Assembly: GCF_019801965.1 (NCBI RefSeq)
Contig: NZ_JAHVIA010000005.1
Location: 186,001 to 250,000 of the forward strand
Source of the DNA: Salipiger bermudensis
GTDB lineage: Bacteria > Pseudomonadota > Alphaproteobacteria > Rhodobacterales > Rhodobacteraceae
DNA length: 64,000 nt
Reading direction: 5' to 3'
Below are positions 8,251 to 55,140 of the stretch, one piece after another. The position numbers were made by a program, and so were the translations under genes. Under the pieces are notes generated by a model that saw only the letters and a list, made by a program, of their open reading frames with translations, was not told the DNA's origin and did no database searches. Numbering within the stretch: the first letter of the stretch is position 1; every line of letters starts with the position of its first letter.

Positions 8251-8288
8251 TTTGCAAACTATCGCTCCAAAATGCGCTAAGCTGCAAA
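8251..8288 (+). promoter_or_regulatory. Candidate ScfR/PccR binding sites in the scfR promoter
   Basis: A perfect TTTGCAAA (8251-8258) is followed after 22 nt by GCTGCAAA (8281-8288), just ahead of the regulator at 8308. PccR of Rhodobacter sphaeroides is reported to bind paired TTTGCAAA motifs. Sites here would fit autoregulation. The spacing, 30 bp start to start, is identical to that in front of pyruvate carboxylase. Confidence 0.55.
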
Positions 8289-8307
8289 GATCGTGGGAGG
8301 GGGAGCA

Positions 8308-9699
8308 ATGGCCACACGCAAGCTCTATGCCGGGGCCAAGCTGCGCGATCTGCGCGGCCGGCTCGGGCTGACGCAGAAGGATTTCGCCGGCAAGCTCGGG
8401 ATCTCCCTGCCCTACCTGAACCAGATGGAGAACAACAACCGCCCGGTCTCGACCACGGTGGTGCTGGCGCTGGCGCAGGAATTCGGCTTCGACGTGACCG
8501 AGCTCGGCCAGGGCGACAGCGAGCGGCTGGTCTCCGACATGCGCGAGGCGCTGGCCGACCCGATCTTCGGCGAGGCCCCGCCGCTGGCCGACCTGCGCCT
8601 CACCGCCTCGAACGCGCCGGCACTGGCGCGCGCCTTCCTCGAGCTGCACCGCGCCTATCGCCAGACCCACGAGCGCCTCGCCTCGCTCGACGAGGCGCTG
8701 GGACGCGAGGATGCGCAGCTGCAGCCGAGCCCCTGGGAGGAGGTGCGCGATTTCTTCCACTACTGCGACAATTACATCGACGCGGTCGACCGAGCGGCGG
8801 AGCATTTCGCCAACATGCTCAAGGGCGATTTGCGCGGCGCGCTGGTGGCTCGCCTGCGCGAGCGCGGCGTGGCGGTGGAGACCGCGAAGACCAGCACGCT
8901 GCGCGCCTATGACGCCGAGCGCAAGCTTCTGACCCTGTCGAACCTGGTGCCGCCGGAGACGCAGAATTTCCAGTTGCTGGTGCAGGTGGCGCTGCTGCGC
9001 CAGAACGACCTGCTGGAAGCGACGCTCGATCTCGCCCGCTTCCAGTCCGAGGCGGCCCGCGCCATCGCCAAGCTCGGCCTCGCCAACTACTTCGCCGGAG
9101 CCGCGATGATGCCCTACGGCGCCTTTCTCGCCGCCGCACAGGAGACGCGCCACGATCTCGAGCTGCTGGCCTCGCGCTTCGGCGCCTCGATCGAGCAGGT
9201 GGCGCACCGTCTCTCGACCCTGCAGCGGCCCGGCGCCAAGGGCATCCCGTTCTTCTTTGCCCGCGTCGACCAGGCCGGCACCATCACCAAGCGCCACTCG
9301 GCGACGCGGCTGCAATTCGCCCGCTTCGGCGGCGCTTGCCCCCTGTGGAACGTCCACCGCGCCTTCGAGACGCCGGGCCGCTTCCTGCGCCAGTTGGCCG
9401 AGACCCCGGACGGGGTGCGCTACGTGCTGCTGGCGCGCGACGTCACCAAGCGCGGCGGCCATTTCGGCGCGCCGGTGCGGCGCTACGCCATGGCGCTCGG
9501 CTGCGAGGTCAAGCACGCGGGCGCGATGGTCTATGCCGACGGGCTCGACCTCGCCCGCGACGGCGCCTTCGAGCCGATCGGCATTTCCTGCCGGATCTGC
9601 GAGCGCACCGATTGCCACCAGCGCTCGGTGCCCCCGTTGGAAAAGCGCCTTTCCATTCGTCCCGAACGCCGCGACGTGCTGCCCTACTCCCTCGAGTAA
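8308..9699 (+). CDS. ScfR/PccR-family short-chain fatty acyl-CoA-responsive regulator
   Basis: A 463-residue protein with an XRE helix-turn-helix at about 10-65 (RGRLGLTQKDFAGKLGIS, then YLNQMENNNRPVS). A long middle region contains an IrrE-like segment and the ScfR (DUF2083) domain follows. The C-terminus carries CRICERTDCHQR. This is the architecture of PccR and RamB-type regulators of propionyl-CoA or acetate metabolism, which sense acyl-CoA esters. Start chosen at ATG 8308, preceded by GGGAGGGGGAG; an upstream GTG adds five residues inside that ribosome-binding site. The TTTGCAAA site in its own promoter and two in the pyc promoter suggest the targets. Confidence 0.85.
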   Translation: MATRKLYAGAKLRDLRGRLGLTQKDFAGKLGISLPYLNQMENNNRPVSTTVVLALAQEFGFDVTELGQGDSERLVSDMREALADPIFGEAPPLADLRLTASNAPALARAFLELHRAYRQTHERLASLDEALGREDAQLQPSPWEEVRDFFHYCDNYIDAVDRAAEHFANMLKGDLRGALVARLRERGVAVETAKTSTLRAYDAERKLLTLSNLVPPETQNFQLLVQVALLRQNDLLEATLDLARFQSEAARAIAKLGLANYFAGAAMMPYGAFLAAAQETRHDLELLASRFGASIEQVAHRLSTLQRPGAKGIPFFFARVDQAGTITKRHSATRLQFARFGGACPLWNVHRAFETPGRFLRQLAETPDGVRYVLLARDVTKRGGHFGAPVRRYAMALGCEVKHAGAMVYADGLDLARDGAFEPIGISCRICERTDCHQRSVPPLEKRLSIRPERRDVLPYSLE

Positions 9700-9763
9700 C
9701 GCCCCCCGTCACACCGCCTGCCCAGCGGGGCATGGGGGCGCTGCCCCCGCCCGCGTGCCGCGG

Positions 9764-9847
9764 CCTCCCCCGAGGTATTTGGAAACCAGAGAAGACAGGA
9801 GCGCCGCGCCCCTGGCTTCTCTTCGTCAAAAATACTCCCGCCGGAGG
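9764..9847. repeat. Roseobacter-type intergenic repeat, paired inverted copies (copy 1)
   Basis: Forward module CCGAGGTATTTGGAAACC then AGAGAAGACAGG, and a facing module whose reverse complement reads GGAGTATTTTTGACGAAG then AGAAG. They are separated by a short GC-rich spacer, so the transcript could fold into a long hairpin between scfR and gatC. A GGGGGCGCTGCCCCC palindrome lies just upstream (9734-9748). Confidence 0.75.
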
Positions 9848-10003
9848 CAGGCCGTCCGCCGCGGCCGGGTGCTGATCCGGACATTGCGCGCAAGATTTGC
9901 CCCCCAGACGCCCGGCATCCGGCGCGGGCGCTTGCGGCGGCGCGGCTGCGGCGGTAAAGCGGGCGAAAGTTTTGCGGACATTTGCAGACAGGGGAGCCTC
10001 CCG

Positions 10004-10291
10004 ATGTCGATCGACACCGACACCGCCGCCCGTGTGGCCAAGCTCGCCCGGATCCGGGTCGAGGACGACCAGCTTCCGGCGCTGGCACAGGAATTCTCGA
10101 ACATCCTCGAGTTCATCGAACAGCTCAACGAGGTCGACGTGGACGGCGTCGAGCCGATGGTCTCCGTCACCCCGATGCGCCTCAAGCGCCGGCAGGATGG
10201 CGTGACCGATGGCAACCAGCAGGACAAGATCCTGTCCAATGCCCCCGATGCCCGCGAGGGATTCTTTGCCGTGCCGAAGGTGGTGGAATGA
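10004..10291 (+). CDS. gatC: Asp-tRNA(Asn)/Glu-tRNA(Gln) amidotransferase subunit C
   Basis: A 95-residue GatC of normal length, starting [17 protein letters not shown] with the conserved helix, and the family motif [15 protein letters not shown] then VDGVEPM. GatC wraps around and stabilises GatA in GatCAB, which amidates misacylated Glu-tRNA(Gln) and/or Asp-tRNA(Asn). GGGGAG precedes the ATG. It overlaps gatA by ATGA (10288-10291). gatB is not next to it within this window. Confidence 0.95.
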
Positions 10292-11775
10292 GCGATCTGA
10301 CGAAGATGAAGGTGGCCGAGGCGCGCGACGCGCTGCGCGCCGGAGACGTGACCTCGGTCGAGCTGACCGAAGCCTGCCTCAGCGCCATCGAGGGCGCCGA
10401 CGCGCTCAATGCCTATGTCCACAAGACCCCCGAGATCGCCATCGAGCAGGCGAAAGCCGCCGATGCCCGCATCAAGGCCGGCGACGCGCCGTCGATGTGC
10501 GGCATCCCGATGGGGATCAAGGACCTGTTCTGCACGAAGGGCGTCGCCTCGCAGGCCGCCTCGCGCATCCTCGAGGGCTTCAAGCCCGAATACGAATCCA
10601 CCGTCACCAGCCAGCTCTTCGACGCCGGCGCGGTGATGCTCGGCAAGCTCAACATGGACGAGTTCGCCATGGGCTCGTCGAACGAGACCTCCTGCTACGG
10701 CAACGCGGTCAACCCGTGGCGCCGCGGCAATGACGACACTCAGCTGACCCCCGGCGGCTCGTCCGGCGGCTCGGCGGCAGCGGTCGCGGCGGATCTCTGC
10801 CTCGCCGCCACCGGCACCGACACCGGCGGCTCGATCCGCCAGCCCGCCGCCTTCACCGGCATCACCGGCATCAAGCCGACCTACGGGCGCTGCTCGCGCT
10901 GGGGCATCATCGCCTTTGCCAGCTCGCTCGACCAGGCCGGCCCGATGACCAAGGACGTGCGCGACGCCGCCATCCTGCTGCAGGCGATGTGCGGCCACGA
11001 CCCCAAGGACTCGACCTCCGCCGACCTGCCCGTGCCGGATTTCGAGGCCATGCTGACTGGCGACATCAAGGGCAAGACCATCGGCATTCCGCGCGAATAC
11101 CACATGGACGGCATGCCCGAGGAGATCGAGGCACTCTGGGCCAAAGGCCGCGACATGCTGGCCGATGCCGGCGCGAAGATCGTCGACATCTCGCTTCCGA
11201 ACACCAAGTACGCCCTGCCCGCCTATTACGTGATCGCGCCCGCCGAGGCCTCGTCGAACCTCGCCCGCTATGACGGCGTGCGGTACGGCCACCGCGCCAC
11301 GCTCGCCGCCGGCGAGGGCATCAACGACATGTACGAGAAGACCCGCGCCGAGGGCTTCGGCCCGGAGGTGCAGCGCCGCGTCATGGTCGGCACCTACGTG
11401 CTGTCGGCGGGCTTCTACGATGCCTATTACAACCGCGCCCGCAAGGTCCGCAGCCTGATCAAGAAGGATTTCGAGGATGTCTTCGCGCAGGGCGTCGACG
11501 CGATCCTGACCCCGGCCACGCCGTCCTCGGCCTTCGGCCTCGGCGAGATGAAAGACGCCGATCCGGTGCAGATGTATCTCAACGACGTCTTCACCGTGAC
11601 GGTGAACCTTGCCGGGCTTCCGGGCGTTAGCGTTCCGGCGGGCCTGGACAAGCAGGGTCTGCCGCTGGGGCTGCAACTGATCGGGCGGCCGTGGGAAGAA
11701 GGGGATCTGCTGAATACCGCCTATGCGCTCGAGCGCGCCGCCGGCTTCGTGGAGAAGCCCGCGAAATGGTGGTAA
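10288..11775 (+). CDS. gatA: Asp-tRNA(Asn)/Glu-tRNA(Gln) amidotransferase subunit A
   Basis: A 495-residue amidase-signature enzyme that releases ammonia from glutamine for the tRNA amidation carried out by GatB. The Ser-cisSer-Lys triad is visible as K78 (MGIKDLF), S158 (PGGSSGGS) and S182 ([11 protein letters not shown]). The length and the [15 protein letters not shown] core are standard for GatA. It is translationally coupled to gatC and probably cotranscribed with it. Confidence 0.97.
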
Positions 11776-11803
11776 CAGCACCGCAACAAAGGTGACGGGC
11801 AAG

Positions 11804-12502
11804 ATGATGAGATCGGCTTTCATTCTTGGCGTGGCAGCAATTGCGCTGTCCGCCTGCACCGGCAGCTCGGTGCCCGACAGTGGCGCCGGCGTCGGCTTCG
11901 ACGACTACCAGACCTACGCGCAGCGCCAGGTCCAGGCGCAGGCCGATGGCACCGTCTCGGTGCAGGCGCCCACCCCGGTGGAGAGCCGCTCGCTGGATGG
12001 CGGCGATCTCGAGTCCGAGGCCGCAGCCGCGGCCGCGGCGCAGAATTCCGGCGTCGCGCCGGTGCAGGCCTCGCCGCAGAACGCCGCACCGGAGGTGGTC
12101 ACCGGCGCCGACGGGATCTCCAACGAGAACAATTTCGATGCGGTCTCGGCCCAGCGCGACATCGAGGACGACGCCGCGCTGATCGCCCAGAACCGGGCGC
12201 AGTACCAGGTCATCGCGCCGACCGACCTGCCGCCGCGCCCGAACAGCAGCGCCCCCAATATCGTGGCCTACGCGCTGCAGACCACCAACCCCAAGGGGGT
12301 GCCGCTCTACGACCGCTCCGGTCGCTATGACGGCAACCCGGTGCCGCGCGCCTGCGGCGCCTACAGTTCCTCCGACCTCGCGCAGGAGGCCTTCCTGTCG
12401 ATGGGCGGCCCGCAGCGCGACCGCAAGGGGCTCGACCCCGATGGCGACGGCTTCGCCTGTGCCTGGGACCCCGCGCCGTTCCGCGCGGCGCGCGGCGGCT
12501 GA
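11804..12502 (+). CDS. Lipoprotein with a C-terminal excalibur calcium-binding motif
   Basis: A 232-residue protein with a signal ending in the lipobox LSAC (Cys at residue 17), so it is predicted to be membrane-anchored. An Ala/Gln-rich low-complexity middle follows. The last 60 residues match the excalibur type, with Cys in PRACGAYSS and a DPDGDGFACAW loop that looks like a calcium-binding hand plus its paired Cys. Exact role unknown; excalibur domains occur in surface and nuclease-associated proteins. Two adjacent ATGs (11804, 11807) are both possible. The gene abuts a peptidoglycan amidase, which would fit an envelope role. Confidence 0.75.
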   Translation: MMRSAFILGVAAIALSACTGSSVPDSGAGVGFDDYQTYAQRQVQAQADGTVSVQAPTPVESRSLDGGDLESEAAAAAAAQNSGVAPVQASPQNAAPEVVTGADGISNENNFDAVSAQRDIEDDAALIAQNRAQYQVIAPTDLPPRPNSSAPNIVAYALQTTNPKGVPLYDRSGRYDGNPVPRACGAYSSSDLAQEAFLSMGGPQRDRKGLDPDGDGFACAWDPAPFRAARGG

Positions 12503-12561
12503 CGCCGCTCTGGCACCCGAGTGACAATTTCGGCCCGCGCCGTGACGGCGCGGCGCCGGAT

Positions 12562-13158
12562 ATGGTCGTCCTGCACTACACCGCGATGGCAAGCGCCGAG
12601 GGCGCGCGCGACTGGCTCTGCAACCCGGAGGCCGGCGTCTCGGCGCATTACGTGATCGGCCGGTACGGCACCGTCTGGCAGCTGGTGCGCGAGGACATGC
12701 GCGCCTGGCACGCCGGGCTCGGCGCCTGGGGCAGCGTCGCGGAGGTGAACTCGCGCTCGATCGGCATCGAGATCGCCAATACCGGCTCCGAACCCTTCCC
12801 CGAGCCGCAGATGGCGGCGCTGGAAGACCTGCTCGCCGGAATCCTTCGGCGCTGGTCGATCGCCCCGGACCGGGTGATCGGCCATTCCGACATGACCCCG
12901 GGGCGCAAGATCGACCCGGGCCCGCGCTTCGACTGGGCCCGCCTTGCCAGGCGCGGCCTCGCCATCACTGCCCTCCCCGGCACGCCCGGCGACTTCCACG
13001 CCGACGCACACCGCTTCGGCTACCGCGTCGGTGCCGATGGCCACGACGCCCTGCTCGCCGCCTTCCGCGATCGTTTCCGCCCCGGCGCACGGGGCCCGCT
13101 CGACGACACCGACCGCAGCCTCATGGCCGGTCTTGCCGCCCGCTACCCCGCCGCCTGA
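12562..13158 (+). CDS. N-acetylmuramoyl-L-alanine amidase, AmpD-like (start uncertain)
   Basis: An amidase_2 domain with zinc ligands visible as His in VVLHYTAM, His in RAWHAG and the late pair in GHSDMTPGRKIDPGPRFDW. It cleaves the MurNAc-L-Ala bond in cell-wall fragments. No signal peptide is seen, so it is probably cytoplasmic recycling like AmpD. The first ATG at 12562 begins inside the domain. The frame upstream (12502-12561) reads LWHPSDNFGPRRDGAAPD, which looks like the conserved N-terminus. No ATG, GTG or TTG precedes it, only a CTG at 12499 that overlaps the previous stop as CTGA. The true start is therefore probably 12499. Confidence 0.85.
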   Translation: MVVLHYTAMASAEGARDWLCNPEAGVSAHYVIGRYGTVWQLVREDMRAWHAGLGAWGSVAEVNSRSIGIEIANTGSEPFPEPQMAALEDLLAGILRRWSIAPDRVIGHSDMTPGRKIDPGPRFDWARLARRGLAITALPGTPGDFHADAHRFGYRVGADGHDALLAAFRDRFRPGARGPLDDTDRSLMAGLAARYPAA

Positions 13159-13187
13159 TCCCGCGCCCTGTTCTGAAGCGCCGTGTC

Positions 13188-13299
13188 GGCGGGAGTATTT
13201 TTGACGAAGAGAAGACAGGGGCTGCGCTTCTTTGGTTCAAAAATACCTCGGGGGTGAATTGGCCGCAGGCCAAGAGGGGGCTGGCCCCCTTTACCCCCC
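13188..13299. repeat. Roseobacter-type intergenic repeat, paired inverted copies (copy 2)
   Basis: Forward module GGGAGTATTTTTGACGAAG then AGAAGACAGGGG, and facing module whose reverse complement reads CCGAGGTATTTTTGAACC then AAAGAAG. The second module carries the full GC-rich arm (AATTGGCCGCAGGCCAAG and GGGGGCTGGCCCCC). It sits between the amidase and the metallo-hydrolase and could act as a bidirectional terminator-like hairpin. Confidence 0.75.
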
Positions 13300-13349
13300 G
13301 ACATCCTGCGCTAGGCTCCGGTCGGACGCTTTCAAAAGAGGATGGATTG

Positions 13350-14042
13350 ATGAAACTCATTTGGCTTGGACATGGCAGTTTCCGCATCGAGATCGAGGAC
13401 CAGGTGCTGCTGATCGACCCCTGGGTCACCGGCAACCCGATGATGCCCGACGACCGCATCGCAGAGGCGCTCGACGGGGCCACCCAGATCCTGATGACGC
13501 ATGGCCATTTCGACCACACCAATGACGTGGTGGCGCTGTCGAAGGACAACGACCTGCCGGTTTCCGGGATCTTCGAACTGATCGGGCTTCTCGAGTCGCA
13601 GGGCGCGGTGGCGGGCCATGCCTTCAACAAGGGCGGCACCATCAGCTTCGGCGAGGTCTCCGTGAGCATGGTTCCGGCCTCGCACAGCTCGTCGATGGAG
13701 ATCGACGGCGTGTCGCGCTACACCGGCATGGAGACCGGCTTCGTCATCCGTGGCGAGGGCAAGACGATCTACTTCTCGGGCGACACCACGATCATGGCCG
13801 ACATGTCGTGGATCGGTGCCTATTACAAACCCGATATCGGAATCCTCAGCGCCGGCGGCTACTACACCATGGACATGGAAATGGCGGCCTGGGCGGCGAA
13901 GACCTATTTCGACTTCAAGACCGTGGTCCCGATGCATTACCGCACCTTCCCGGCGCTCGAGCAATCCGCAGAGACGCTCGCCGCCGGCCTGCCCGGCGTG
14001 CAGGTCATCGAGCCGCAGGTGCTCGAGGCGATCGAACTCTGA
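13350..14042 (+). CDS. UPF0173-type metal-dependent hydrolase (metallo-beta-lactamase fold)
   Basis: A 230-residue protein beginning MKLIWLGHGSFRIE. The zinc motif THGHFDHTND corresponds to HxHxDH; further ligands are likely His in PASHSS, Asp in FSGDTT and His in PMHYRTFP. This is the YtkL/UPF0173 group, single-domain cytoplasmic hydrolases of unsettled substrate. AGAGGA precedes the ATG. Downstream spacing to the next gene is about 70 bp, so cotranscription is possible but not shown. Confidence 0.9.
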   Translation: MKLIWLGHGSFRIEIEDQVLLIDPWVTGNPMMPDDRIAEALDGATQILMTHGHFDHTNDVVALSKDNDLPVSGIFELIGLLESQGAVAGHAFNKGGTISFGEVSVSMVPASHSSSMEIDGVSRYTGMETGFVIRGEGKTIYFSGDTTIMADMSWIGAYYKPDIGILSAGGYYTMDMEMAAWAAKTYFDFKTVVPMHYRTFPALEQSAETLAAGLPGVQVIEPQVLEAIEL

Positions 14043-14113
14043 TCGCGGCCGCTTCCCGGCGCGCCCCGCCCCGCCTATAGTGCAGGCAAAACAGGTGGGG
14101 TGCGCGCAGCGGC

Positions 14114-15124
14114 ATGACAGGCAAGGACGAAAGCGAGGGCACGGGCCCGGTCAACGTGATGATCGTGGGCCAGGCCGGACGGCTGCAATACGAGGCCCTT
14201 CTCTTCGCGCTTTCCTTCGCGCTCACCACGCCGGCGCGCCACGCGACGCTGCATGTCGCCGAGCCGCAGCCGGGCGATCTCTGGCCGCTCGACCCGCGCA
14301 TCGACGACCCCGAGCTGCGCGCCCTGCTCGAGGCCCATGGCGCCCGGATCCTGCCCTTCGAGAGCCGGCATTTCGGCGCCGCCTATCCCTATGGCAACAA
14401 GATCGAGGCGCTGCTGGCGCTGCCCGAGGGCGAACCCTTCGTGTTCTTCGACAGCGACACGCTGATGCTCGACGACCTGGCGCGGGTGCCGTTCGACTTC
14501 TCACGCCCCAGCGCCTCGCTTCGCCGCGAGGGCACCTGGCCGCAGATCGAGCTCTACGGGCCGGGCTACAGCGAGACCTGGAAGGCGCTCTACGATCGCT
14601 TCGGGCTCGATTTCGAGAGCTCGCTCGACCTCGGCTGGCCCGACGAGTACTGGCAGCGCCATCTCTACTTCAACGCCGGGTTCTTCTTCGGCCCCTGCCC
14701 GCGCCGCTTCGGCCAGCGCTTCCTCGATTACGCGCTCGAGATCCGCGATGATCCACCGCCCGAGCTGGTCTGCCAGAGCCTCGACCCCTGGCTCGACCAG
14801 GTGGCGCTGCCGCTGGTGATCCACGCGTTCGGCGGCGGCCGCGACACGCTGCCGGACGGGCTGATCGACGGCACGGTGAGCTGCCACTACCGCACCCTGC
14901 CGCTGCTCTATGCCCGCGAGAGCGACACGGTGGTGGACTGGCTCGAGGAGATCGCGGCCCCGAACCGGGTCAAGCGCATCCTCAAGCAATATGAGCCGAT
15001 GCGGCGCATGGTCTACCAGGGCCGCGGCCGCAAGGCCCGGGCGCTCTTTGATCGCGAGAACCTGCCCCGGCGCGAGCAAGGCTTTCGCAACCGGCTGAAA
15101 CGGGAAGGCTTCTGGATGCGCTGA
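14114..15124 (+). CDS. Putative glycosyltransferase-like protein
   Basis: A 336-residue soluble protein with no signal. The N-terminal strand NVMIVGQAGRLQYEALLFA and the later FVFFDSDTLMLDD resemble the nucleotide-sugar-binding fold and DxD metal motif of GT-A glycosyltransferases (GT8-like); DxD is residues 116-118 approximately. The C-terminal third is basic. No acceptor or pathway is suggested by the neighbours. The family assignment rests on the DxD context and fold-like order only. Confidence 0.55.
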   Translation: MTGKDESEGTGPVNVMIVGQAGRLQYEALLFALSFALTTPARHATLHVAEPQPGDLWPLDPRIDDPELRALLEAHGARILPFESRHFGAAYPYGNKIEALLALPEGEPFVFFDSDTLMLDDLARVPFDFSRPSASLRREGTWPQIELYGPGYSETWKALYDRFGLDFESSLDLGWPDEYWQRHLYFNAGFFFGPCPRRFGQRFLDYALEIRDDPPPELVCQSLDPWLDQVALPLVIHAFGGGRDTLPDGLIDGTVSCHYRTLPLLYARESDTVVDWLEEIAAPNRVKRILKQYEPMRRMVYQGRGRKARALFDRENLPRREQGFRNRLKREGFWMR

Positions 15125-15211
15125 GGCGGCGTGTCGGCTGGGCGGCGTCGGGCGGAGGCTCTCTGGTGGAGGCCGCGCCTCAGGGCTGGCGGAGGCGCGT
15201 TTGAGAGCGTC

Positions 15212-15290
15212 CGGGGGGGGGCCAGCCCCCTCTTGGCGCTCTGTGCGCCAATTCACCCCCGAGGTATTTGTCGAACCAGAGAAGACAGAG
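15212..15290 (+). repeat. Roseobacter-type intergenic repeat (copy 3)
   Basis: GC-rich hairpin arms (GGGGGGCCAGCCCCC, then TTGGCGCTCTGTGCGCCAA) are followed by CACCCCCGAGGTATTTG and TCGAACCAGAGAAGACAG. It is about 120 bp upstream of the metY start, forward relative to it. Confidence 0.75.
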
Positions 15291-15408
15291 GGCGGCGCGG
15301 GTGGAGGGGCGTCGCGCGGGTCGATTTCGAAGGAACGGCGCCGTGGATATTGTGGGGCGCCCTGCAATGGCCTACGCCTATGGGCGAGGGTTCATAAGGG
15401 AGGATTTC

Positions 15409-16686
15409 ATGACACACGGCTTCGACACGCTGCAGGTGCACGCGGGCGCCCGGCCCGACCCGGCCACCGGGGCGCGGCAGACACCGATCTACCAGACCAC
15501 CGCCTATGTCTTCCGCGACGCCGACCACGCCGCGGCGCTCTTCAACCTGCAGGAGGTGGGCTACATCTATTCGCGCCTCACCAACCCGACGGTTGCCGCC
15601 CTGCAGGAACGGGTCGCGACGCTCGAGGGCGGCGCCGGGGCGGTGTGCTGCTCCTCGGGCCACGCGGCGCAGATCATGGCGCTCTTCCCGCTGATGGGTC
15701 CGGGGCTGAATATCGTTGCTTCCACAAGGGCTTATGGCGGAACGATCACGCAGTTCAGCCAGACCATCAAGCGCTTCGGCTGGTCGTGCAAATTCGTCGA
15801 TTTCGATGATCTCGGCGCCGTCGAGGCAGCCATAGACGACAACACCCGCGCGGTGTTCTGCGAGAGCATCGCCAATCCCGGCGGCTACATCACCGATCTC
15901 GACGCCATCGCCGCCATCGCCGACAAGGCCGGGCTGCCGCTGATCGTCGACAACACCTCGGCGACGCCCTATCTCTGCCGTCCGATCGAGCACGGCGCCA
16001 CGCTGGTGGTGCATTCGCTGACCAAGTACCTGACCGGCAACGGCACGGTGACCGGCGGCGCGGTCGTCGACTCGGGGCGTTTCGACTGGTCTGCCTCGGG
16101 CAAGTTCCCCTCGCTCTCGGATCCCGAGCCGGCCTATCATGGGCTCAAGTTCCACGAGACCTTCGGTTCGCTCGCCTTCACCTTCCACTCCATCGCCGTC
16201 GGCCTGCGCGATCTTGGCATGACGATGAACCCGCAGGGCGCGCATTACACGCTGATGGGCATCGAGACCCTGAGCCTGCGGATGCAGAAGCACGTGGAAA
16301 ACGCCATGCGCGTGGCCTCCTGGCTCGAGAACCACCCGGCGGTGGAGCGCGTCACCTATGCCGGACTGCCCTCCTCGCCCTACAATGACCGGGTTGCCAA
16401 GATCTGCCCCAACGGCGCCGGCGGACTGTTCACCATCGCGCTGAAGGGCGGCTACGAGAGCTGCATCAAGTTCGTCGACGCGCTGCAGATCTTCAGCCAC
16501 GTGGCCAATCTTGGCGATGCCCGCAGCCTGGTGATCCACTCCGCCTCGACCACCCACCGCCAGCTCAGCGAGGAGCAGCAGATCGCCGCCGGGGCTGCGC
16601 CGAACGTGGTGCGGATCTCGATCGGCATCGAGGATCCCGAGGACCTGATCGCTGATCTCGAGCAGGCGCTGGCACAGGCCGGATGA
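15409..16686 (+). CDS. metY: O-acetylhomoserine aminocarboxypropyltransferase (sulfhydrylase) MetY-type
   Basis: A 425-residue Cys/Met-metabolism PLP enzyme. It shows the N-terminal FDTLQVHAGARPDPATGARQ of the O-acetylhomoserine sulfhydrylase group and the PLP lysine in VVHSLTKYLTGNGTVTGG, the usual SxTKY context. It makes homocysteine (or methionine/cysteine analogues) from O-acetylhomoserine and sulfide, upstream of MetH. ATG 15409 has an excellent AAGGGAGGA; the longer open frame upstream crosses a repeat and is rejected. A clear terminator follows. No SAM riboswitch recognised in the leader. Confidence 0.92.
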   Translation: MTHGFDTLQVHAGARPDPATGARQTPIYQTTAYVFRDADHAAALFNLQEVGYIYSRLTNPTVAALQERVATLEGGAGAVCCSSGHAAQIMALFPLMGPGLNIVASTRAYGGTITQFSQTIKRFGWSCKFVDFDDLGAVEAAIDDNTRAVFCESIANPGGYITDLDAIAAIADKAGLPLIVDNTSATPYLCRPIEHGATLVVHSLTKYLTGNGTVTGGAVVDSGRFDWSASGKFPSLSDPEPAYHGLKFHETFGSLAFTFHSIAVGLRDLGMTMNPQGAHYTLMGIETLSLRMQKHVENAMRVASWLENHPAVERVTYAGLPSSPYNDRVAKICPNGAGGLFTIALKGGYESCIKFVDALQIFSHVANLGDARSLVIHSASTTHRQLSEEQQIAAGAAPNVVRISIGIEDPEDLIADLEQALAQAG

Positions 16687-16717
16687 GCCGGCCCGGCCTG
16701 CAAGGAGCCGACTTTGT

Positions 16718-16743
16718 GGGGGGCGCCGCGGCGCCCCCTTAAT
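16718..16743 (+). terminator. Rho-independent terminator after metY
   Basis: Perfect 9-bp stem GGGGGCGCC / GGCGCCCCC with a two-base loop (16719-16738), followed by TTAAT. It sits between the convergent metY and SIMPL genes; the T-run is short. Confidence 0.7.
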
Positions 16744-16753
16744 CGTCTTGGAC

Positions 16754-17440
16754 CTACTCGGCGATCTCGAACACCATGGTGACGCGGGCGCCGACCGTGG
16801 TTTCGCCCGCGGCGACCGGCGCGGAGGCAACCCGCGCCTCCATCATCGGCATCGGCGGCGCGTAGCCACCGCCCGATTCCGAGATCGACAGCACCGGCCC
16901 CAGCGTGACGCCGGCCGCCTCGGCCAGCACCCGCGCCCGCTCCATCGCGTCGGCCACCGCGTCGCGCCGCGCGGCTTCGGTCACCGGGTCGGGATCCTGC
17001 AGGCCGAAGCTCAGCCCCGAGAGCCGGTTGGCGCCATCCTCGGTCACCGCGCCCAGCACCGCGCCGAGCTGGTCGAGATCGCGCACCCGTACGGTCAGCC
17101 GGTTCGATGCCTCGTAGCCGGTGATCTCGCGCGCGCGCTCGGAATCGTAGTTGCTCCAGATCGGCTGGAGCCCGACATCCGAGGTCTGCCGGTCGCGCGC
17201 GGCGATGCCCATCGCGTCGAGCCGGGCGAGAATCGCTGCCGCGACCTCGGAGGCCTCGTTCATCGCGGTGCCGGGATCGGCATTTTCGACGCTGACACCG
17301 AGGCTCACGGTGGCCATGTCGGGCACGGCGACGGCTTCCCCCTCGCCGGTGACGGTCAGTTTCAGCGCGCTGTCCTGCGCGAAGGCGGCGCCGGCCGACA
17401 GCAAGAGCGTGCAGGCGGTGACAAGGGCGAGACGACGCAT
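16754..17440 (-). CDS. Periplasmic SIMPL-domain (DUF541) protein
   Basis: A 228-residue protein with a clean signal peptide (MRRLALVTACTLLLSAGAAF then AQD), so exported. The mature part is a SIMPL/DUF541 domain: LTVTGEGEAVAVPDMATVS at its start, SNRLTVRVRDLDQLG in the middle and VGARVTMVFEI at the end. E. coli YggE is a well-known member linked to oxidative stress, though its biochemical role is unclear. Start ATG 17438-17440 with AGGAGG upstream; longer open frame upstream lacks a signal. Convergent with metY, divergent from the next gene. Confidence 0.88.
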   Translation of the reverse strand: MRRLALVTACTLLLSAGAAFAQDSALKLTVTGEGEAVAVPDMATVSLGVSVENADPGTAMNEASEVAAAILARLDAMGIAARDRQTSDVGLQPIWSNYDSERAREITGYEASNRLTVRVRDLDQLGAVLGAVTEDGANRLSGLSFGLQDPDPVTEAARRDAVADAMERARVLAEAAGVTLGPVLSISESGGGYAPPMPMMEARVASAPVAAGETTVGARVTMVFEIAE

Positions 17441-17522
17441 GGGATCCTCCTCGGGATTGGTAAAGATATCGTCAACATCGGGCTCCGGGCGGCGTGTCGC
17501 AAGGCTCTGCGTTGCAAGCTTT

Positions 17523-17550
17523 CTTCCGCTCGGCGGAAGGCTGCTATACT
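17523..17550 (+). promoter_or_regulatory. Palindrome and -10-like element upstream of the 917-residue gene
   Basis: CTTCCGC-TCG-GCGGAAG (17523-17539) is a perfect 7-bp inverted repeat followed six bases later by TATACT (17545-17550), a good -10 hexamer. The palindrome occupies the spacer/-35 region, as an operator would. The regulator is unknown. Confidence 0.4.
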
Positions 17551-17607
17551 CTGTCATCGCGGGGCAGCAGACTCCCATCAACAGCCGAGCAGTGGTAGAC
17601 ACCGGAC

Positions 17608-20361
17608 ATGGTACCGAATTTCGCGCTTTCCCTGTCCTTCGACGGCATCGCTCTTCTCAGGCGGTCGGTCTCGGGCTGGATGCAGATCGAGCAGCTGGCC
17701 TTCGAGGACGCGGCGCTCGAGACAAAGCTCACCGCCCTGCGCGAGCGCGCCGAGGCGCTTGCCGCCGATGGCGCGCAGGTGCTGCTGGTGTTGCCGAACG
17801 AGCAGATCCGCTATCTCGACCTTGCCGACCCCGGCGGTGACGATGACGCCGGCGCAAACGCCGTGCGCGCCGCGCTCGACGGTGCCACGCCCTACGCGGT
17901 CGACGAGCTGAGCTATGACTGGTCGCGGCGCGATGACCGGCTGCTGGCAGCCGCCGTCGCGCAGGAGACGCTCGACGAGGCCGAGAGCTTCGTGCGGGCG
18001 CATGGCTTCGTGCCGGTGGCCTTCACCGCCATCCCCGGCGACGAGGCGTTCGAGGGGGCCGTCTCCTTCGGCGCGGCATCGGGCTGGACCGGCGCGGCGC
18101 CGGAGCGGCTCAAGACCCCGATCAAGGTCGTCCCGGCAACGGCAGAAGCGCCTTGGGCTGGCGCCGCGCGGCGGCCGCAGCCTGCGCCCGAGTCAGAGGC
18201 CGATGGAGCTGCCGACGTGGCCGAGCTTGTCGCGACGCCGCCGGTGGCGACGGATATCGATGCGGAGGAGACTCCGGCAGAGGCAGAGCCTCAGCAGGCG
18301 CAGCCCGAAGCGGCAATTTCGGCGGAGGCGGAGCCTGAGCCCATGCCTGCGAGCGCTTCCTCCGAGGCGAATGAGGTGCCTGCCGATCGAGCCGAGACCG
18401 AGGCCGACGCGCCGCAGGAGGAGACCGCCAGCTTCGGCGGCGGCACGTTCGGCCCCGGTGGCGGGGCAAGAACGCCCGTCGAGGCGCCGCCCCTGCCCGA
18501 GCCGCGCAGCACGGTGCCGGTCGCGCCGGCGGCGCCCGGACCGGCACAAAGACCCGGCGCGCCGAGCTTCTCGAGCATACGGGCCAGCCGCGAAGCCCCG
18601 TCCCCTGCGGCGGCCCCGTCGCTGACCGCCGCTGCCGACGGCGGCCCCGGCCGCACCCCGCAACTGCGCGCTGAGGCCGCGCCCGACAGCGCGGCAAAAG
18701 CCCCCGGAAAGAAGGCGCCCACCGCGGGAGGAACGGCCTCCAAGCCCCTGCGGAAGAATAAGAAAGCGGCGGCTGCACCGGCACCGGAGCCGGCCGATCC
18801 CGGCCCGGCCGCCCCCCGCAAGGATGCGCTGCAGGTCGCCGCCATGCGCCGCAACGCCGGCACCGATCCGGGGCCTGCGACGGCACAGCTCGCCGCCGCA
18901 GCTGCGGTCGATCCGGAAGAGGAACGCCGGCGGATGACCGTCTTCGGCGCACGCGGCCAGGAGATCGGCGGCAAGCCGCGCTTCCTCGGCCTCATGCTGA
19001 CGGCGGCGCTTCTGCTGTTCCTCGCCGCGGTCGCCGCCTGGGCGTCGGTCTTCCTCGACGAGGGCATCTCGGGCCTGTTCCGCCGCGACGCCGCGCCGAC
19101 CACCATCGCGGAGACCCTGCCCGAGGGCGAGGCGGCAGAGGAGCTTGCCGATGCGGAGCCGGAGATCGGGCCCGAGGCGGTTCTCGACACCGCTGCGCTC
19201 ACGCCCGCCCCCGCGCCGGAAGCCCCCGAGGCGGAGACTGCGCCGGAGATAGAGGCCGCGCCTGCGCCCGTGACGATCGACGAGACCGCCGCGCCGGAGC
19301 CGGCCCTGCCCTCGGCGGAGCCGCTCTCGCCCGACGAGGCCGCCACCCGCTACGCCGCGACCGGCATCTGGCAGGCCGCGCCGACGGCGCCACGCATGCC
19401 CGGTGGCAGCGATGTCGACGATCTCTACATCTCCTCTGTCGACCCGGCGGTGGGACAGTTCGACGCCATCGCCCTGCCCGCGGCGCCGGGCCTCAACGAC
19501 GATATCGCGCTCGAACCGATGCGCTTGCCGCCCGGCCCCGACGAGCGCTTCGACCTCGATCCGCGCGGGCTGGTCCGGGCCACTCCCGAGGGCGCGATCT
19601 CGCCCGACGGGCATCGCGTCTTCACCGGCCCGCCGCCGCAGCGCCCGCCGCTGCGCGAGGCCGCCGAGGACGCCCCGGAGGCCGGAGAGGCCGAGACGCC
19701 GCAGGACAGCGCAGCCCTTGCCGCCGCCGACGCGCTGCGCGCGGTGCGTCCGCAGGATCGGCCGGAAGACCTGATCGAACAGACCGAGCGCGCGAGCCTT
19801 GGCGGTATCTCGCGCTCCGAGCTCGCCGACATGCGCCCGGTGCTGCGCCCCGAGAGCGTCAGCGTCCAGGCCGAGGCGGCCCGCGAGACGCTGGTCGCGC
19901 CGGTGTCCGAGGACATCGCGACAGCGGTGGAGGAGGCGCTCGAGGCGCCCGAAGTGCCGAGCGGCACCGCGCAGGCAGTGGCCAGCTCGCTCGAGCCGCA
20001 GACCCGCCCCGGCAACATGTCGAGCCTGGTGCAGCAGGCGGCGCGCCGCGCGCCGCAGCAGACCCAGACCGCCACAGCAGCGCCGGTGCGCGTGCAGCCC
20101 GGCCCGCGCGTGCCACAGAATGCCAACGTGGCCCGCGAGGCGACCACCGCGAACCAGATCAATCTGCGTGACATGAACCTGATCGGCGTCTTCGGCAGCG
20201 CCTCGAACCGGCGTGCGCTGGTGCGGCTGTCGAACGGGCGGCTGCAGAACGTCAAGGTCGGTGACCGTCTCGATGGCGGCCGCGTGGCCGCGATCGGCGA
20301 GGACGAGCTGCGGCTCACCAAGAGCGGGCGCAACATCGTCTTGCGGATGCCGCGCGGCTGA
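17608..20361 (+). CDS. Large single-pass membrane protein with a C-terminal PilP/GspC-like domain
   Basis: A 917-residue protein. Residues 1-165 are globular, beginning MVPNFALSLSFDGIALLRRS, loosely resembling GspL/PilM-type N-terminal domains. Residues 170-450 are Ala/Pro/Glu-rich and disordered, a basic stretch precedes a single membrane segment at about 457-482, and another acidic, Pro-rich linker reaches residue 840. The last 67 residues (LRDMNLIGVFGSASNRRALV, then VKVGDRLDGGRVAAIG) have the pattern of the PilP/GspC homology region. This suggests a trans-envelope connector, but no pilus or type II secretion gene is nearby. Such proteins are often misnamed IF-2 because of composition. Function unknown. 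Confidence 0.8.
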   Translation: MVPNFALSLSFDGIALLRRSVSGWMQIEQLAFEDAALETKLTALRERAEALAADGAQVLLVLPNEQIRYLDLADPGGDDDAGANAVRAALDGATPYAVDELSYDWSRRDDRLLAAAVAQETLDEAESFVRAHGFVPVAFTAIPGDEAFEGAVSFGAASGWTGAAPERLKTPIKVVPATAEAPWAGAARRPQPAPESEADGAADVAELVATPPVATDIDAEETPAEAEPQQAQPEAAISAEAEPEPMPASASSEANEVPADRAETEADAPQEETASFGGGTFGPGGGARTPVEAPPLPEPRSTVPVAPAAPGPAQRPGAPSFSSIRASREAPSPAAAPSLTAAADGGPGRTPQLRAEAAPDSAAKAPGKKAPTAGGTASKPLRKNKKAAAAPAPEPADPGPAAPRKDALQVAAMRRNAGTDPGPATAQLAAAAAVDPEEERRRMTVFGARGQEIGGKPRFLGLMLTAALLLFLAAVAAWASVFLDEGISGLFRRDAAPTTIAETLPEGEAAEELADAEPEIGPEAVLDTAALTPAPAPEAPEAETAPEIEAAPAPVTIDETAAPEPALPSAEPLSPDEAATRYAATGIWQAAPTAPRMPGGSDVDDLYISSVDPAVGQFDAIALPAAPGLNDDIALEPMRLPPGPDERFDLDPRGLVRATPEGAISPDGHRVFTGPPPQRPPLREAAEDAPEAGEAETPQDSAALAAADALRAVRPQDRPEDLIEQTERASLGGISRSELADMRPVLRPESVSVQAEAARETLVAPVSEDIATAVEEALEAPEVPSGTAQAVASSLEPQTRPGNMSSLVQQAARRAPQQTQTATAAPVRVQPGPRVPQNANVAREATTANQINLRDMNLIGVFGSASNRRALVRLSNGRLQNVKVGDRLDGGRVAAIGEDELRLTKSGRNIVLRMPRG

Positions 20362-20364
20362 GGC

Positions 20365-20385
20365 CCGGGCGGTCATTCCGCCCGC
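20365..20385. terminator. Possible bidirectional hairpin between convergent genes
   Basis: CGGGCGG-TCATT-CCGCCCG (20366-20384) lies in the 78-bp gap between the convergent 917-residue gene and the helicase gene. No strong T-run follows on either strand, so termination is only likely, not clear. Confidence 0.45.
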
Positions 20386-20439
20386 GGCAAACCCTGTTTC
20401 ATTTCCGGGAGATGCGCCGCGATCTTCGCAGCGCAGGCC

Positions 20440-22890
20440 CTAGAAGGGCACGTCGTTTTCGGCGTGCACGAAGCGCGCCACGACCTTCTTCACACCGGCC
20501 TTCTCGAAATCGATCTCGAGCTTGTCGCCCTCGATGCCGATCACCGCGCCGTAGCCGAACTTCTGGTGGAACACCCGCTGCCCGGTCTCGAAGGCCGAGA
20601 CCGCCTGCAGGTCGATCACCGTGTTGCGGCTCTCGCGTGGCTGGCTCACCGGGCGCTGGCCCGAGCGCTCCTGCAGCCGCTTCCAGCCCGGAGAATTGTA
20701 GACGTTGGCCTCGGCCGCACGGCTCTCGAGCCCCGAGCCGGCGCCATAGGGTGCCGCGGCGCCGAAGCCGCCGCCGTAGAGCCCCGGCGGGGTCAGCACC
20801 TCGACATGCTGCTCGGGCAGCTCGTCGATGAAGCGCGAGGGCAGCGCGCTCTGCCACTGGCCGAAGACCCGGCGGTTGCCCGCGAACGAGATCGTGCAGA
20901 GCTCCTCGGCGCGGGTGATGCCCACGTAAGCCAGCCGGCGCTCTTCCTCGAGCCCCTTCTGGCCGCTCTCGTCCATCGAGCGCTGCGACGGAAACAGCCC
21001 GTCTTCCCAGCCCGGGAGGAATACCACCGGGAACTCGAGCCCCTTGGCAGCGTGCAGGGTCATGATCGAGACCTTGGCGCCGCTCTCCTCGGTCTCGTTG
21101 TCCATGATCAGCGCCACGTGCTCGAGGAAGCCCTGCAGGTTCTCGAACTGCTCCAGCGCCTTGACGAGTTCCTTGAGGTTCTCGAGCCGGCCCGGCGCCT
21201 CGGGCGTCTTGTCGTTCTGCCACATGGCGGTGTAGCCGCTCTCGTCGAGGATCATCTCGGCGAGCTCCATGTGGGTCATCCGCGGCGCGCCGCGCCGGGT
21301 CTCGCCCACGGTCAGCGGCTCCTCGTTGTCGATCACCGCGTCCTCGATGCCGTCATCGGCCAGCTCTCCGGGGCGCAGCACCGGGCCGAGCATGGTCTCG
21401 CGCCAGCGGGCGAGGTTCTCGCAGAGCTGGCGCAGGTGGCCGCCGCCCTTGCCCTTGATCCGCCCCTCGTCGACCGCGATGCGGGCGCCGTCGAGCAGCG
21501 AAACGCCGAACTCGCGCGCGGTGTGCTGGATCAGCTGCTGCGCCTTGTCGCCAAGGCCGCGCTTGGGAGTGTTGACGATGCGCTCGAAGGCGAGATCGTC
21601 ATCGGGCGAGACCACGAGGCGGAAATAGGCCATGGCATCGCGGATTTCCATGCGCTCGTAGAAGCGCGGGCCGCCGATCACGCGATACGGCAGACCGATG
21701 GTCAGGAAGCGGTCCTCGAAGGCGCGCATCTGGTGCGAGGCGCGCACGAGGATGGCCATGTCGTCGAGCGATTTCGGATCGAGCCCGCGGGTGCCCTTCT
21801 GCAGCGACTCGATCTCCTCGCCGATCCAGCGCGCCTCTTCCTCGCCGTCCCAATGGCCGATCAGGCGGACCTTCTCGCCACCCTCGGCGGCGGTCCAGAG
21901 CTCCTTGCCGAGCCGGCCCTCATTGCCCCGGATGACGCCGGAGGCGGCGGCGAGGATATGCGCCGTCGAGCGGTAGTTCTGCTCCAGCCGGACCACGTGG
22001 GCGCCGGGAAAATCCTTCTCGAAGCGCAGGATGTTGCCGACTTCGGCACCGCGCCAGCCATAGATCGACTGGTCGTCATCGCCGACGCAACAGATGTTCT
22101 TGTGCCCGCCCGCCAGCAGCCGCAGCCAGAGATACTGCGCCACGTTGGTGTCCTGGTACTCGTCGACGAGGATGTAGCGGAACCAGCGCTGGTATTGCTC
22201 GAGAATGTCGGGATGGGCCTGGAAGATCGTCACCACGTGCAGCAGCAGGTCGCCGAAATCGCAGGCGTTGAGCTCGCGCAGGCGGGTCTGGTACTGCTCG
22301 TAGAGCTCGGTGCCGCGGTGGTTGAAAGCCGAGGCCTCGGAGGCGGGCACCTTGGCAGGCGTCCAGGCGCGGTTTTTCCAGTGGTCGATCAGCCCCGAGA
22401 GCTGCCGCGCTGGCCAGCGCTTTTCATCGATATTGTTGGCCGAGAGCAGCTGCTTGAGCAGGCGGATCTGGTCGTCGGTGTCGAGGATGGTGAAGTTCGA
22501 CTTGAGCCCCGCGAGCTCGGCGTGACGGCGCAGGAGCTTGACGCAGATGGCATGGAAGGTGCCGAGCCACGGCATGCCCTCGATCTGCTGGCCGAGCATC
22601 CGCCCCACCCGGTTCTTCATCTCGCGCGCGGCCTTGTTGGTGAAGGTCACCGCGAGGATCTCGTTGGGTCGCGCCTTGCCGCTGACCAGCAGGTGCACGA
22701 TGCGCGAGGTCAGCGCCTTGGTCTTGCCGGTGCCGGCGCCGGCGAGCATCAGCACCGGCCCGTCGAGCCGTTCCACCGCCTCGCGCTGTGCCGGGTTCAG
22801 GTCGTCGAGATAGGGCGCCGGGCGCGCGGCCATGGCGCGCGCGGACAGCGAAGCGCCTTCGAAGGCGTCCATGTCATCGAAACTGCTCAT
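20440..22890 (-). CDS. uvrD: ATP-dependent 3'-5' DNA helicase, UvrD/PcrA type
   Basis: An 816-residue SF1A helicase. Motifs in order: the Q motif LNPAQREAV, Walker A AGAGTGKT, TFTNKAAREM (Ia), LVDEYQDTN (II), VGDDDQSIYGWRGA (III), EQNYRS (IV), IMTLHAAKGLEF (V) and VGITRAEE (VI). The C-terminus ends in a Tudor-like KOW segment (QRVFHQKFGYGAVIGIEGDK) that in PcrA/UvrD contacts RNA polymerase. It acts in nucleotide-excision and mismatch repair. I place the start at ATG 22888-22890 rather than the TTG three codons upstream. Confidence 0.95.
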   Translation of the reverse strand: MSSFDDMDAFEGASLSARAMAARPAPYLDDLNPAQREAVERLDGPVLMLAGAGTGKTKALTSRIVHLLVSGKARPNEILAVTFTNKAAREMKNRVGRMLGQQIEGMPWLGTFHAICVKLLRRHAELAGLKSNFTILDTDDQIRLLKQLLSANNIDEKRWPARQLSGLIDHWKNRAWTPAKVPASEASAFNHRGTELYEQYQTRLRELNACDFGDLLLHVVTIFQAHPDILEQYQRWFRYILVDEYQDTNVAQYLWLRLLAGGHKNICCVGDDDQSIYGWRGAEVGNILRFEKDFPGAHVVRLEQNYRSTAHILAAASGVIRGNEGRLGKELWTAAEGGEKVRLIGHWDGEEEARWIGEEIESLQKGTRGLDPKSLDDMAILVRASHQMRAFEDRFLTIGLPYRVIGGPRFYERMEIRDAMAYFRLVVSPDDDLAFERIVNTPKRGLGDKAQQLIQHTAREFGVSLLDGARIAVDEGRIKGKGGGHLRQLCENLARWRETMLGPVLRPGELADDGIEDAVIDNEEPLTVGETRRGAPRMTHMELAEMILDESGYTAMWQNDKTPEAPGRLENLKELVKALEQFENLQGFLEHVALIMDNETEESGAKVSIMTLHAAKGLEFPVVFLPGWEDGLFPSQRSMDESGQKGLEEERRLAYVGITRAEELCTISFAGNRRVFGQWQSALPSRFIDELPEQHVEVLTPPGLYGGGFGAAAPYGAGSGLESRAAEANVYNSPGWKRLQERSGQRPVSQPRESRNTVIDLQAVSAFETGQRVFHQKFGYGAVIGIEGDKLEIDFEKAGVKKVVARFVHAENDVPF

Positions 22891-23138
22891 GGCCGCCAAT
22901 CTAGCGGTTGCCGCACGGGATGGAAAGACGGCGTTCGCGCAATGTTCTCACCAATCTTTTGCACCCACCGACATCCGTGCGCGTCGTGGAAGCGCCCCGC
23001 CCCCGGCCTGCCCCGCGACAGATGCGCCCCCCCGGACGCACCCGAGGCCGCAATCGCCTCGGTCAGCGCAAGTTTTTTCGCCAGCGCAAAGACGCTGCCT
23101 GCCGGAAATCGCGAATATTCGGTCTCTGCCAGCCGATC

Positions 23139-23176
23139 TTTGCAAAGATATCTGAGCTACATGTTTAATTTGCAAA
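23139..23176 (+). promoter_or_regulatory. Two TTTGCAAA sites in the pyruvate carboxylase promoter
   Basis: Perfect TTTGCAAA palindromes at 23139-23146 and 23169-23176, 22 nt apart, both inside the 365-bp region between the divergent helicase and pyc genes. The motif is that reported for the ScfR regulator PccR, and the spacing equals that at scfR itself. The rest of this intergenic region shows no small gene; a CAGCGCAAG/CAGCGCAAAG pair at about 23062-23092 is unexplained. Confidence 0.55.
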
Positions 23177-23255
23177 GCCACCTTGCGCTGCAACGCGGCA
23201 TCGCGTTCTATCTCGCCGATGGTCTGGAGAGAGACCCTAAGGAGGAAGTTAAAGT

Positions 23256-54486: not shown

Positions 54487-55047
54487 TCACTTGTTCATCT
54501 TGGAGAGCTTGCTCTGCAGCTCGGCCAGCTGCTTCTTGATGGCGTCGAGGTCTTCCTCTTCGCCCTTGGCCGGCTGCTCGCCCTCGGCTTCGGGGCCGGA
54601 CCATTGCTTGCTCATGTTGCCGGTCATCGCCTTCAGGAACGCTTCCTGCTGGGCCTGCATCGCCTCGAGGCCGGGGATCTTCGGCATCATCGGGTTGGAG
54701 CTCATGCTCTCGGCCCATTTCGACTGGCTGTCGCGGAACATCTCGAAGGAGGCGGCAAGAAACTGCGGCACCGCCGAGGTCGCCTGCGTGGTGTAGCTGC
54801 GCACCAGATCGGTGAGCACGTTGATCGGCAGCACGCTCTCGCCGCGGCTCTCGTGCTCGGCGACGATCTGCAGCAGGTATTGCCGGGTCAGGTCATCACC
54901 GGACTTCAGGTCGACGATCTGCACGTCGCGCCCATCGCGGATGAAGCCCGCGATGTCCTCCAGCGTGACGTAATCGCTGGTCTCGGTGTTGTAGAGACGC
55001 CGGCTGGCATAGCGCTTGATCAGCAGCGGTTTTTCCGTGTCGGCCAC
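54487..55047 (-). CDS. phaR: Polyhydroxyalkanoate synthesis repressor PhaR
   Basis: A 186-residue protein with the PHB/PHA accumulation regulator DNA-binding domain up front (LIKRYASRRLYNTETSDYVT then LEDIAGFI, about 8-65). The PHB_acc domain follows (QYLLQIVAEHESRGESVLPI then NVLTDLVRSY). A C-terminal coiled coil (KKQLAELQSKLSK) completes it. It represses phasin genes and senses PHA granules. The start is GTG 55045-55047 with GGGAGGG upstream. Confidence 0.93.
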   Translation of the reverse strand: MADTEKPLLIKRYASRRLYNTETSDYVTLEDIAGFIRDGRDVQIVDLKSGDDLTRQYLLQIVAEHESRGESVLPINVLTDLVRSYTTQATSAVPQFLAASFEMFRDSQSKWAESMSSNPMMPKIPGLEAMQAQQEAFLKAMTGNMSKQWSGPEAEGEQPAKGEEEDLDAIKKQLAELQSKLSKMNK

Positions 55048-55140
55048 TCGGTGCCCTCCCTGGCATGCAGCGTTGCAGCGAAAGCCTATGCGAGCGCAGA
55101 AAAAAAGAAAAGCCTTTGCGTGCAAGCACGAAGCCGGAGG

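Follow-up and report, generated by a model that had tools for sequence, protein, structure and literature searches.

The closest described counterpart of the regulator considered here is PccR of Rhodobacter (Cereibacter) sphaeroides, said to have been reported by Carter and Alber in 2015, which reportedly binds TTTGCAAA-X4-TTTGCAAA and controls propionyl-CoA assimilation. PrpR of Mycobacterium tuberculosis is a further point of reference; according to the accessible sections of PMC6765138, its residue Phe155 sets the choice of ligand, and a tryptophan occupies this position in R. sphaeroides PccR. A different regulator is associated with pyruvate carboxylase: the available part of PMC12542648 places pyc among the PhaR/AniA targets in Sinorhizobium meliloti and gives CTGCNNNGCAG as the PhaR site of R. 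sphaeroides, and the portion of PMC12632250 at hand describes pyruvate carboxylase as the C. sphaeroides enzyme that links the C3 with the C4 pool. Here we describe a stretch of 64,000 nucleotides from Salipiger bermudensis (the window, by which we mean the whole stretch that was analysed) in which pairs of one octamer precede both a regulator gene and pyc (Table 1). The sites, their geometry, conservation and position, and the orthology of the regulator are observed, and from these we infer binding, ligand and sign of control: quite probably, a PccR orthologue reads the octamer pairs upstream of pyc and of its own gene, activating pyc and repressing pccR.

Table 1. Coordinates of genes and predicted promoter elements in the window
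Feature	Position	Strand	Basis
Distal PccR box at pccR (TTTGCAAA, predicted)	8251..8258	+	perfect in all 31 N22 pairs (up to two mismatches) among 60 pccR promoters
GCTAA half-site, adjoining the proximal box at pccR	8276..8280	+	sequence
Proximal PccR box at pccR (GCTGCAAA, two mismatches; predicted)	8281..8288	+	sequence, frame scan
pccR, ScfR-family regulator (HTH, IrrE-like, PF09856), 463 aa	8308..9699	+	domain profiles, alignment to MtPrpR
Distal PccR box at pyc (predicted)	23139..23146	+	octamer and spacing scans
Proximal PccR box at pyc (predicted), 30 bp from the distal box	23169..23176	+	octamer and spacing scans
CTTGCG, putative -35-like element, 5 nt past the proximal box	23182..23187	+	sequence
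PhaR-like operator CTGCAACGCGGCA (predicted; one mismatch to CTGCNNNGCAG)	23188..23200	+	comparison with the quoted R. sphaeroides site
TTCTAT, candidate -10, 17 bp after TTGCGC	23206..23211	+	by eye, weak
pyc, pyruvate carboxylase	23256..26699	+	NF009554 and TIGR01235 over cut-off
phaR open frame (PHB_acc_N + PHB_acc), likely GTG start 55047; candidate second pyc regulator	54487..55125	-	
Match to the pyc block CTTGCGCTGCANCGCGGCAT, two mismatches, shortly upstream of the likely start of phaR	55065..55084	-	

The regulator was assigned to the ScfR family by an earlier note on this DNA, and this assignment stands, its HTH_3, Peptidase_M78 (IrrE-like) and ScfRs (PF09856) domains each scoring above their cut-offs. 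The label 'scfR-type regulator' is thus correct as to family; the protein is better named PccR itself, on the strength of synteny, Trp143 and identity. It aligns to the structures of M. tuberculosis PrpR with Trp143 at the position of Phe155, a tryptophan that is found in 42 of 42 orthologues, amongst which the recognition helix is nearly invariant. Five cysteines (Cys344, 399, 428, 431 and 436), candidate ligands of an iron-sulfur cluster, are likewise kept in all 42 and match the cysteine region at the C-terminus of MtPrpR. In 17 of the 20 genus genomes some 7 kb separate the regulator from a pccA-like gene, with pccB in between; the arrangement is broken up in G007, in G019 (pcc cluster and pccR on one contig, approximately 1.6 Mb apart) and in the window genome itself (G000; pcc cluster on contig C4, pccR on C5). 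Family membership, gene order and the surrounding genes gave the names pccB and pccA; the models that score best in NCBIfam are those of related carboxylase subunits. Judged by the synteny in its relatives, the key tryptophan and sequence identity, the regulator is a PccR orthologue; it is so called by orthology and not by its site, since the pccB gene of the window genome lacks the X4 pair and carries TTTGCAAATTTGC and upstream TTTGC words instead. Membership of RamB was rejected, the score for the NF038139 equivalog being 426.7 bits against a curated cut-off of 700. A search of the window genome with PccR returned one other ScfR-like protein, about 30% identical, whose gene (L152 5811-7121, on contig G000:C15) sits between ABC transporter genes and the gene of a transporter-like histidine kinase.

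Three perfect copies of TTTGCAAA occur in the window, all of them in the pccR and pyc promoters and none elsewhere in the 64 kb, which agrees with the earlier count. Chance had been expected to supply well under one such octamer in 64 kb, and dinucleotide shuffles of the window indeed gave a mean of 0.20 and in none of 100 rounds reached three. The partner box at the regulator is GCTGCAAA, with two mismatches, as had been noted before, and the frame TTTGCAAA-N24-TGCAAA fits exactly two places in the window, 8251-8288 and 23139-23176 (38 bp); the proposal that one type of site serves both the regulator and pyc is supported. When up to two mismatches were allowed, the only additional matches to this frame were the same two places on the opposite strand (shuffle mean 0.03). 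In the whole window genome TTTGCAAA is found at 23 places vs 7 for the reversed word, and the exact pair TTTGCAAA-N22-TTTGCAAA at a single place, at pyc; the octamer alone is enriched only about threefold genome-wide, and it is the N22 pair that carries the signal. Between pccR and gatC, at window positions 9970-9988, there is also TTTTGCGGACATTTGCAGA, in which two TTTGC words stand 10 bp apart.

A scan of relatives had been put forward as a test of the paired sites, and both the boxes and their distance prove to be kept upstream of pyc and pccR. The exact pair TTTGCAAA-N22-TTTGCAAA is present in 27 of 394 family genomes, at one place in each, and the reversed pattern in none. Sixteen of these pairs directly precede pccR (that of G028 among them), eight precede pyc (including those of G000 and G007, and amounting to only eight of the 394 genomes), one precedes prpE (G124, locus L193) and two are unassigned (G157, G413). 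Within Salipiger a tolerance of one mismatch retrieves the pair in 18 of 20 genomes at 22 places (control 0), namely 18 at pyc, one at pccR (G004), two at prpE (G006, G013) and one unassigned (G001). With up to two mismatches 19 of the 20 genus pyc promoters contain the pair, the sole exception being S. marinus (G017), whose pyc boxes are absent; in the 19, boxes and distance are kept and the bases of the spacer vary. The pccR promoters of the genus are more diverse, with N22 in 13 of 20 at up to two mismatches and in three at three mismatches, N21 in three, and neither in G018. The genus members are closely related and these counts are consequently not independent, which makes the scan of 394 genomes the stronger control.

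Spacings from N0 to N40 were compared at up to two mismatches in the 200 nt upstream of 63 pyc and 60 pccR genes. N22 was found in 27 of the pyc promoters, the next best spacings (N1 and N13) in five, and in 31 of the pccR promoters, the next best (N14) in 13; no shuffle of single bases produced it in 20 rounds. Six of the pyc and 15 of the pccR promoters had been selected by the motif, and without them N22 stands at 21/57 and 16/45, respectively. A PccR orthologue is encoded in each of the 27 genomes whose pyc is boxed. The pair is absent from 36 of the 63 pyc promoters examined, and is missing at pyc in genomes that do carry PccR, for example G088, G165, G291, G336, G407 and the C. sphaeroides-like G094. 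Amongst the matches listed there are 80 named pyc loci, 78 of them with enough upstream DNA, and at least six have the pair with up to two mismatches: those of Mameliella sediminis, S. aestuarii, a record labelled Enemella TN21-6, Sagittula salina, Pseudooceanicola nanhaiensis and Oceanicola 22II-s10i. The pyc pair is limited to Salipiger and a few other genera. The label of the Enemella evansiae TN21-6 record (L328) looks wrong, its contig corresponding to G021 of the window's own family; E. evansiae is an actinobacterium.

The earlier note had credited the regulator with a wider, 30-bp spacing. This is true of the pyc and pccR promoters of many genomes; as a fixed property of PccR it is contradicted by the pccB array and by other genera, which show N4, N12 or N17. 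Even at pccR spacings other than N22 are frequent (N21, N14, N12). The C. sphaeroides-like genome G094 has TTTGCAAA-X4-TTTGCAAA, the motif reported for PccR, at pccB and an N12 pair at pccR, while its pyc promoter is devoid of octamers, and the recognition helix of its PccR is near-identical to that of the window regulator. In keeping with its label, G094 is among the top two by PufX score. The spacing of the octamers is accordingly specific to promoter and clade, with the recognition helix hardly changing. The co-occurrence of N4, N12, N17 and N22 with such a helix provides a natural test of how an ScfR protein spans a paired operator. An additional half-site, GC[AT]AA, adjoins the proximal box in 20 of the 31 N22 pccR sites (15 of 16 without the motif-selected genomes) and lies one base further from it in 11 of 27 pyc sites; GCWAA is absent from the other 16 pyc sites, the window's own among them. 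In the sites that do have it, this common half-site speaks for a single protein reading both promoters.

The position of the pairs relative to the core promoter is suggestive of the sign of control. In 26 of the 27 boxed pyc promoters the proximal box ends 4-6 nt before a CTTGC element; at pccB the distance from the end of the last perfect octamer to CTTGAG, which is likewise -35-like, is 14 nt. The distances from box to -35-like element at the two genes differ by about one helical turn, so that a bound factor would face the polymerase alike. With the pyc pair upstream of the -35-like element and a turn nearer to it than at pccB, the most likely outcome is that PccR, once loaded with a ligand that is probably propionyl-CoA, activates pyc. 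In 28 of 31 pccR promoters the end of the pair and the start codon are 1-19 nt apart; this proximity fits autorepression, and PccR positioned there should repress its own gene. In some genomes (G005, G008, G009, G010, G011, G014, G015 and G016) box 2 leads almost straight into the pccR ATG and no Shine-Dalgarno sequence is visible, so that the message is possibly leaderless or the start misplaced.

Mechanistically, PccR would act as an acyl-CoA sensor of the ScfR family with pairs of TTTGCAAA as its recognition sites, and it most likely binds those of both pyc and pccR. The octamer centres, 30 bp or about three turns apart, would lie on the same face of the DNA upstream of pyc in Salipiger and some other genera; the same pair would be read before pccR in a large part of the genus and in genera beyond it, and different arrays of TTTGCAAA or TTTGC words at pccB and prpE. 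The ligand-bound form would then stimulate pyc transcription, and PccR seated near the pccR start would hold down its own synthesis.

The most substantial alternative accepts that PccR binds the pyc pair but has it repress the gene. Propionyl-CoA assimilation already yields C4 units, and induction of pyc by propionyl-CoA is therefore not required; with propionyl-CoA feeding the C4 pool, carboxylation of pyruvate would be unneeded and repression equally sensible physiologically. The same pair moreover lies over the pccR start region, where repression is expected. Set against this is the location of the pyc boxes, which precede the -35-like element and differ by about a helical turn from the arrangement at pccB, and we regard repression of pyc as rather unlikely. 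A different reader of the pyc pair, be it another ScfR protein of the RamB or MccR type or some other XRE factor, would find precedent in the TTTGC(A/G)AA words shared by M. tuberculosis PrpR and RamB (in the accessible sections of PMC6765138) and in the two boxes with an 18-bp spacer used by the class 2 RamB of Paracoccus denitrificans (in the part of PMC10370305 at hand). The one paralogue found is, however, about 30% identical and has an ABC transporter and a histidine kinase as gene neighbours, none of the 23 octamers of the genome falls on its contig C15, and 16 family genomes have this N22 geometry immediately ahead of pccR, all of which leaves such a reader with a low probability.

Two further readings dispense with an operator altogether. 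TTGCAA resembles a -35 hexamer, and where the start codon directly follows box 2 the first box at pccR stands at about the -35 position, such that the octamers could be taken for core-promoter elements; yet each is a palindrome, the distance within the pair is fixed, and the pyc octamers precede a CTTGC element of which a similar version is present in several family genomes without boxes. We consider this reading very unlikely. Least credible of all, and in our estimate close to negligible, is that the pyc octamers are chance occurrences or neutral leftovers without function. Neutral retention could draw on the restriction of the site to a few genera and on the close relationship of the genus members, owing to which 19 of 20 is not a tally of independent cases; but the spacer varies while boxes and distance stay. 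A chance origin of the pairs was rejected, as they recur in other genera and the controls gave no match.

PccR, as the preferred reader of the pyc pair, may not act on this promoter by itself. The pair is followed directly by CTTGCGCTGCAACGCGGCAT (block 23182-23201), and the window's own pyc has CTGCAACGCGG, one mismatch from CTGCNNNGCAG; the strict PhaR consensus does not occur in the window. Of the 63 pyc promoters, 35 contain the word in its relaxed form, YGCN3GCRGCA (mean of 0.91 and maximum of 4 in dinucleotide shuffles), and six in its strict form (mean 0.46, maximum 2). Promoters with PccR boxes, which come mostly from one genus, have the relaxed form in 25 of 27 cases and those without in 10 of 36, and it is found at no fewer than 32 of the 78 named pyc loci among the matches listed. 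This distribution suggests a wider PhaR input at pyc, to which PccR input would have been added in fewer genera. When the genome was scanned with the pyc block at up to three mismatches, 26 places were obtained vs two for the reversed pattern; the only perfect one is pyc, the source of the query, and the place upstream of phaR shares the second rank (two mismatches) with one other. Given 26 places, single matches mean little. Of 30 relatives, 19 have a looser PhaR word close to the start of phaR, but it is missing there in 10 of 20 genus members, which counts against simple PhaR autoregulation. Somewhat tentatively, the pyc promoter of Salipiger and related genera could be a two-sensor anaplerotic switch, with PccR responding to propionyl-CoA just upstream of the -35 element and PhaR bound between -35 and -10, from where PHB granules would titrate it away. 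If true, C3-to-C4 carboxylation would answer to both acyl-CoA flux and carbon storage. In some genera the upstream regions of pyc genes without PccR boxes (L234, L235, L237, L242 and L245) have a word in common that approximates TACCCANNACTACGTGTTTACG, partial in two of the five and perhaps the site of another regulator.

Candidate PccR targets also lie beyond the window. The pccB gene of the window genome has one octamer about 70 nt upstream, and its array in the genus genomes consists of TTTGC words, a gap of some 20 bp and then TTTGCAAATTTGC. Three octamers lie 100-181 nt upstream of prpE, none of them in an N22 pair; the best model for this gene is propionate-CoA ligase, with a score below cut-off for what is a partial sequence. 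Amongst the 23 octamer places of the genome there is no convincing target other than pccR, pyc, pccB and prpE, and most have no evident link to propionate. A single TTTGCAAA (L159 1563-1570; G000:C7:159362) is located shortly upstream of mmsA, encoding a CoA-acylating methylmalonate-semialdehyde dehydrogenase (TIGR01722 over cut-off) that makes propionyl-CoA, and mmsA is a possible further target.

The literature on PccR and ScfR proteins, the octamer, RamB and regulators of propionyl-CoA carboxylase, as far as it was accessible, contained no report of PccR acting at pyc, and a prior mention is possible. The earlier note had tied acyl-CoA status to anaplerosis, and we would retain this as an inference: a propionyl-CoA sensor on pyc would, if real, link odd-chain and acetyl-CoA assimilation to anaplerosis. 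The PccR sensor may, in other words, also set the refilling of the central metabolic cycle; the paired signal is kept in related marine bacteria.

Among the known systems, PhaR/AniA control in S. meliloti has pyc as a named PhaR target; the PhaR-like site of the window is a predicted one, a single mismatch off the quoted sequence and beside a PccR-type operator. PrpR, a tetramer, and RamB of M. tuberculosis belong to the same family and, in the sections of PMC6765138 available, share TTTGCAAA-type palindromes and a cysteine region that aligns with that of the window regulator, but their palindromes are 1 bp apart, Phe or His replaces the Trp, and the targets are prp and icl1. The class 2 RamB of P. 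denitrificans, in the available part of PMC10370305, is likewise an ScfR activator with two near-identical boxes, both needed and separated by an 18-bp spacer; it differs in its subclass, in its target, the glyoxylate-cycle operon, and in its proposed ligand, beta-methylmalyl-CoA. Nearest are the C. sphaeroides-like G094, in which the recognition helix is near-identical and both pccB and pccR have octamers, and R. sphaeroides PccR, with which the window regulator shares the ScfR domain order, the Trp at the ligand-selectivity position and the TTTGCAAA octamers. In contrast to R. sphaeroides PccR, the pairs at pyc and pccR are here spaced by N22, pccR is separate from the pcc cluster in the window genome, and pyc, without boxes in G094, is boxed.
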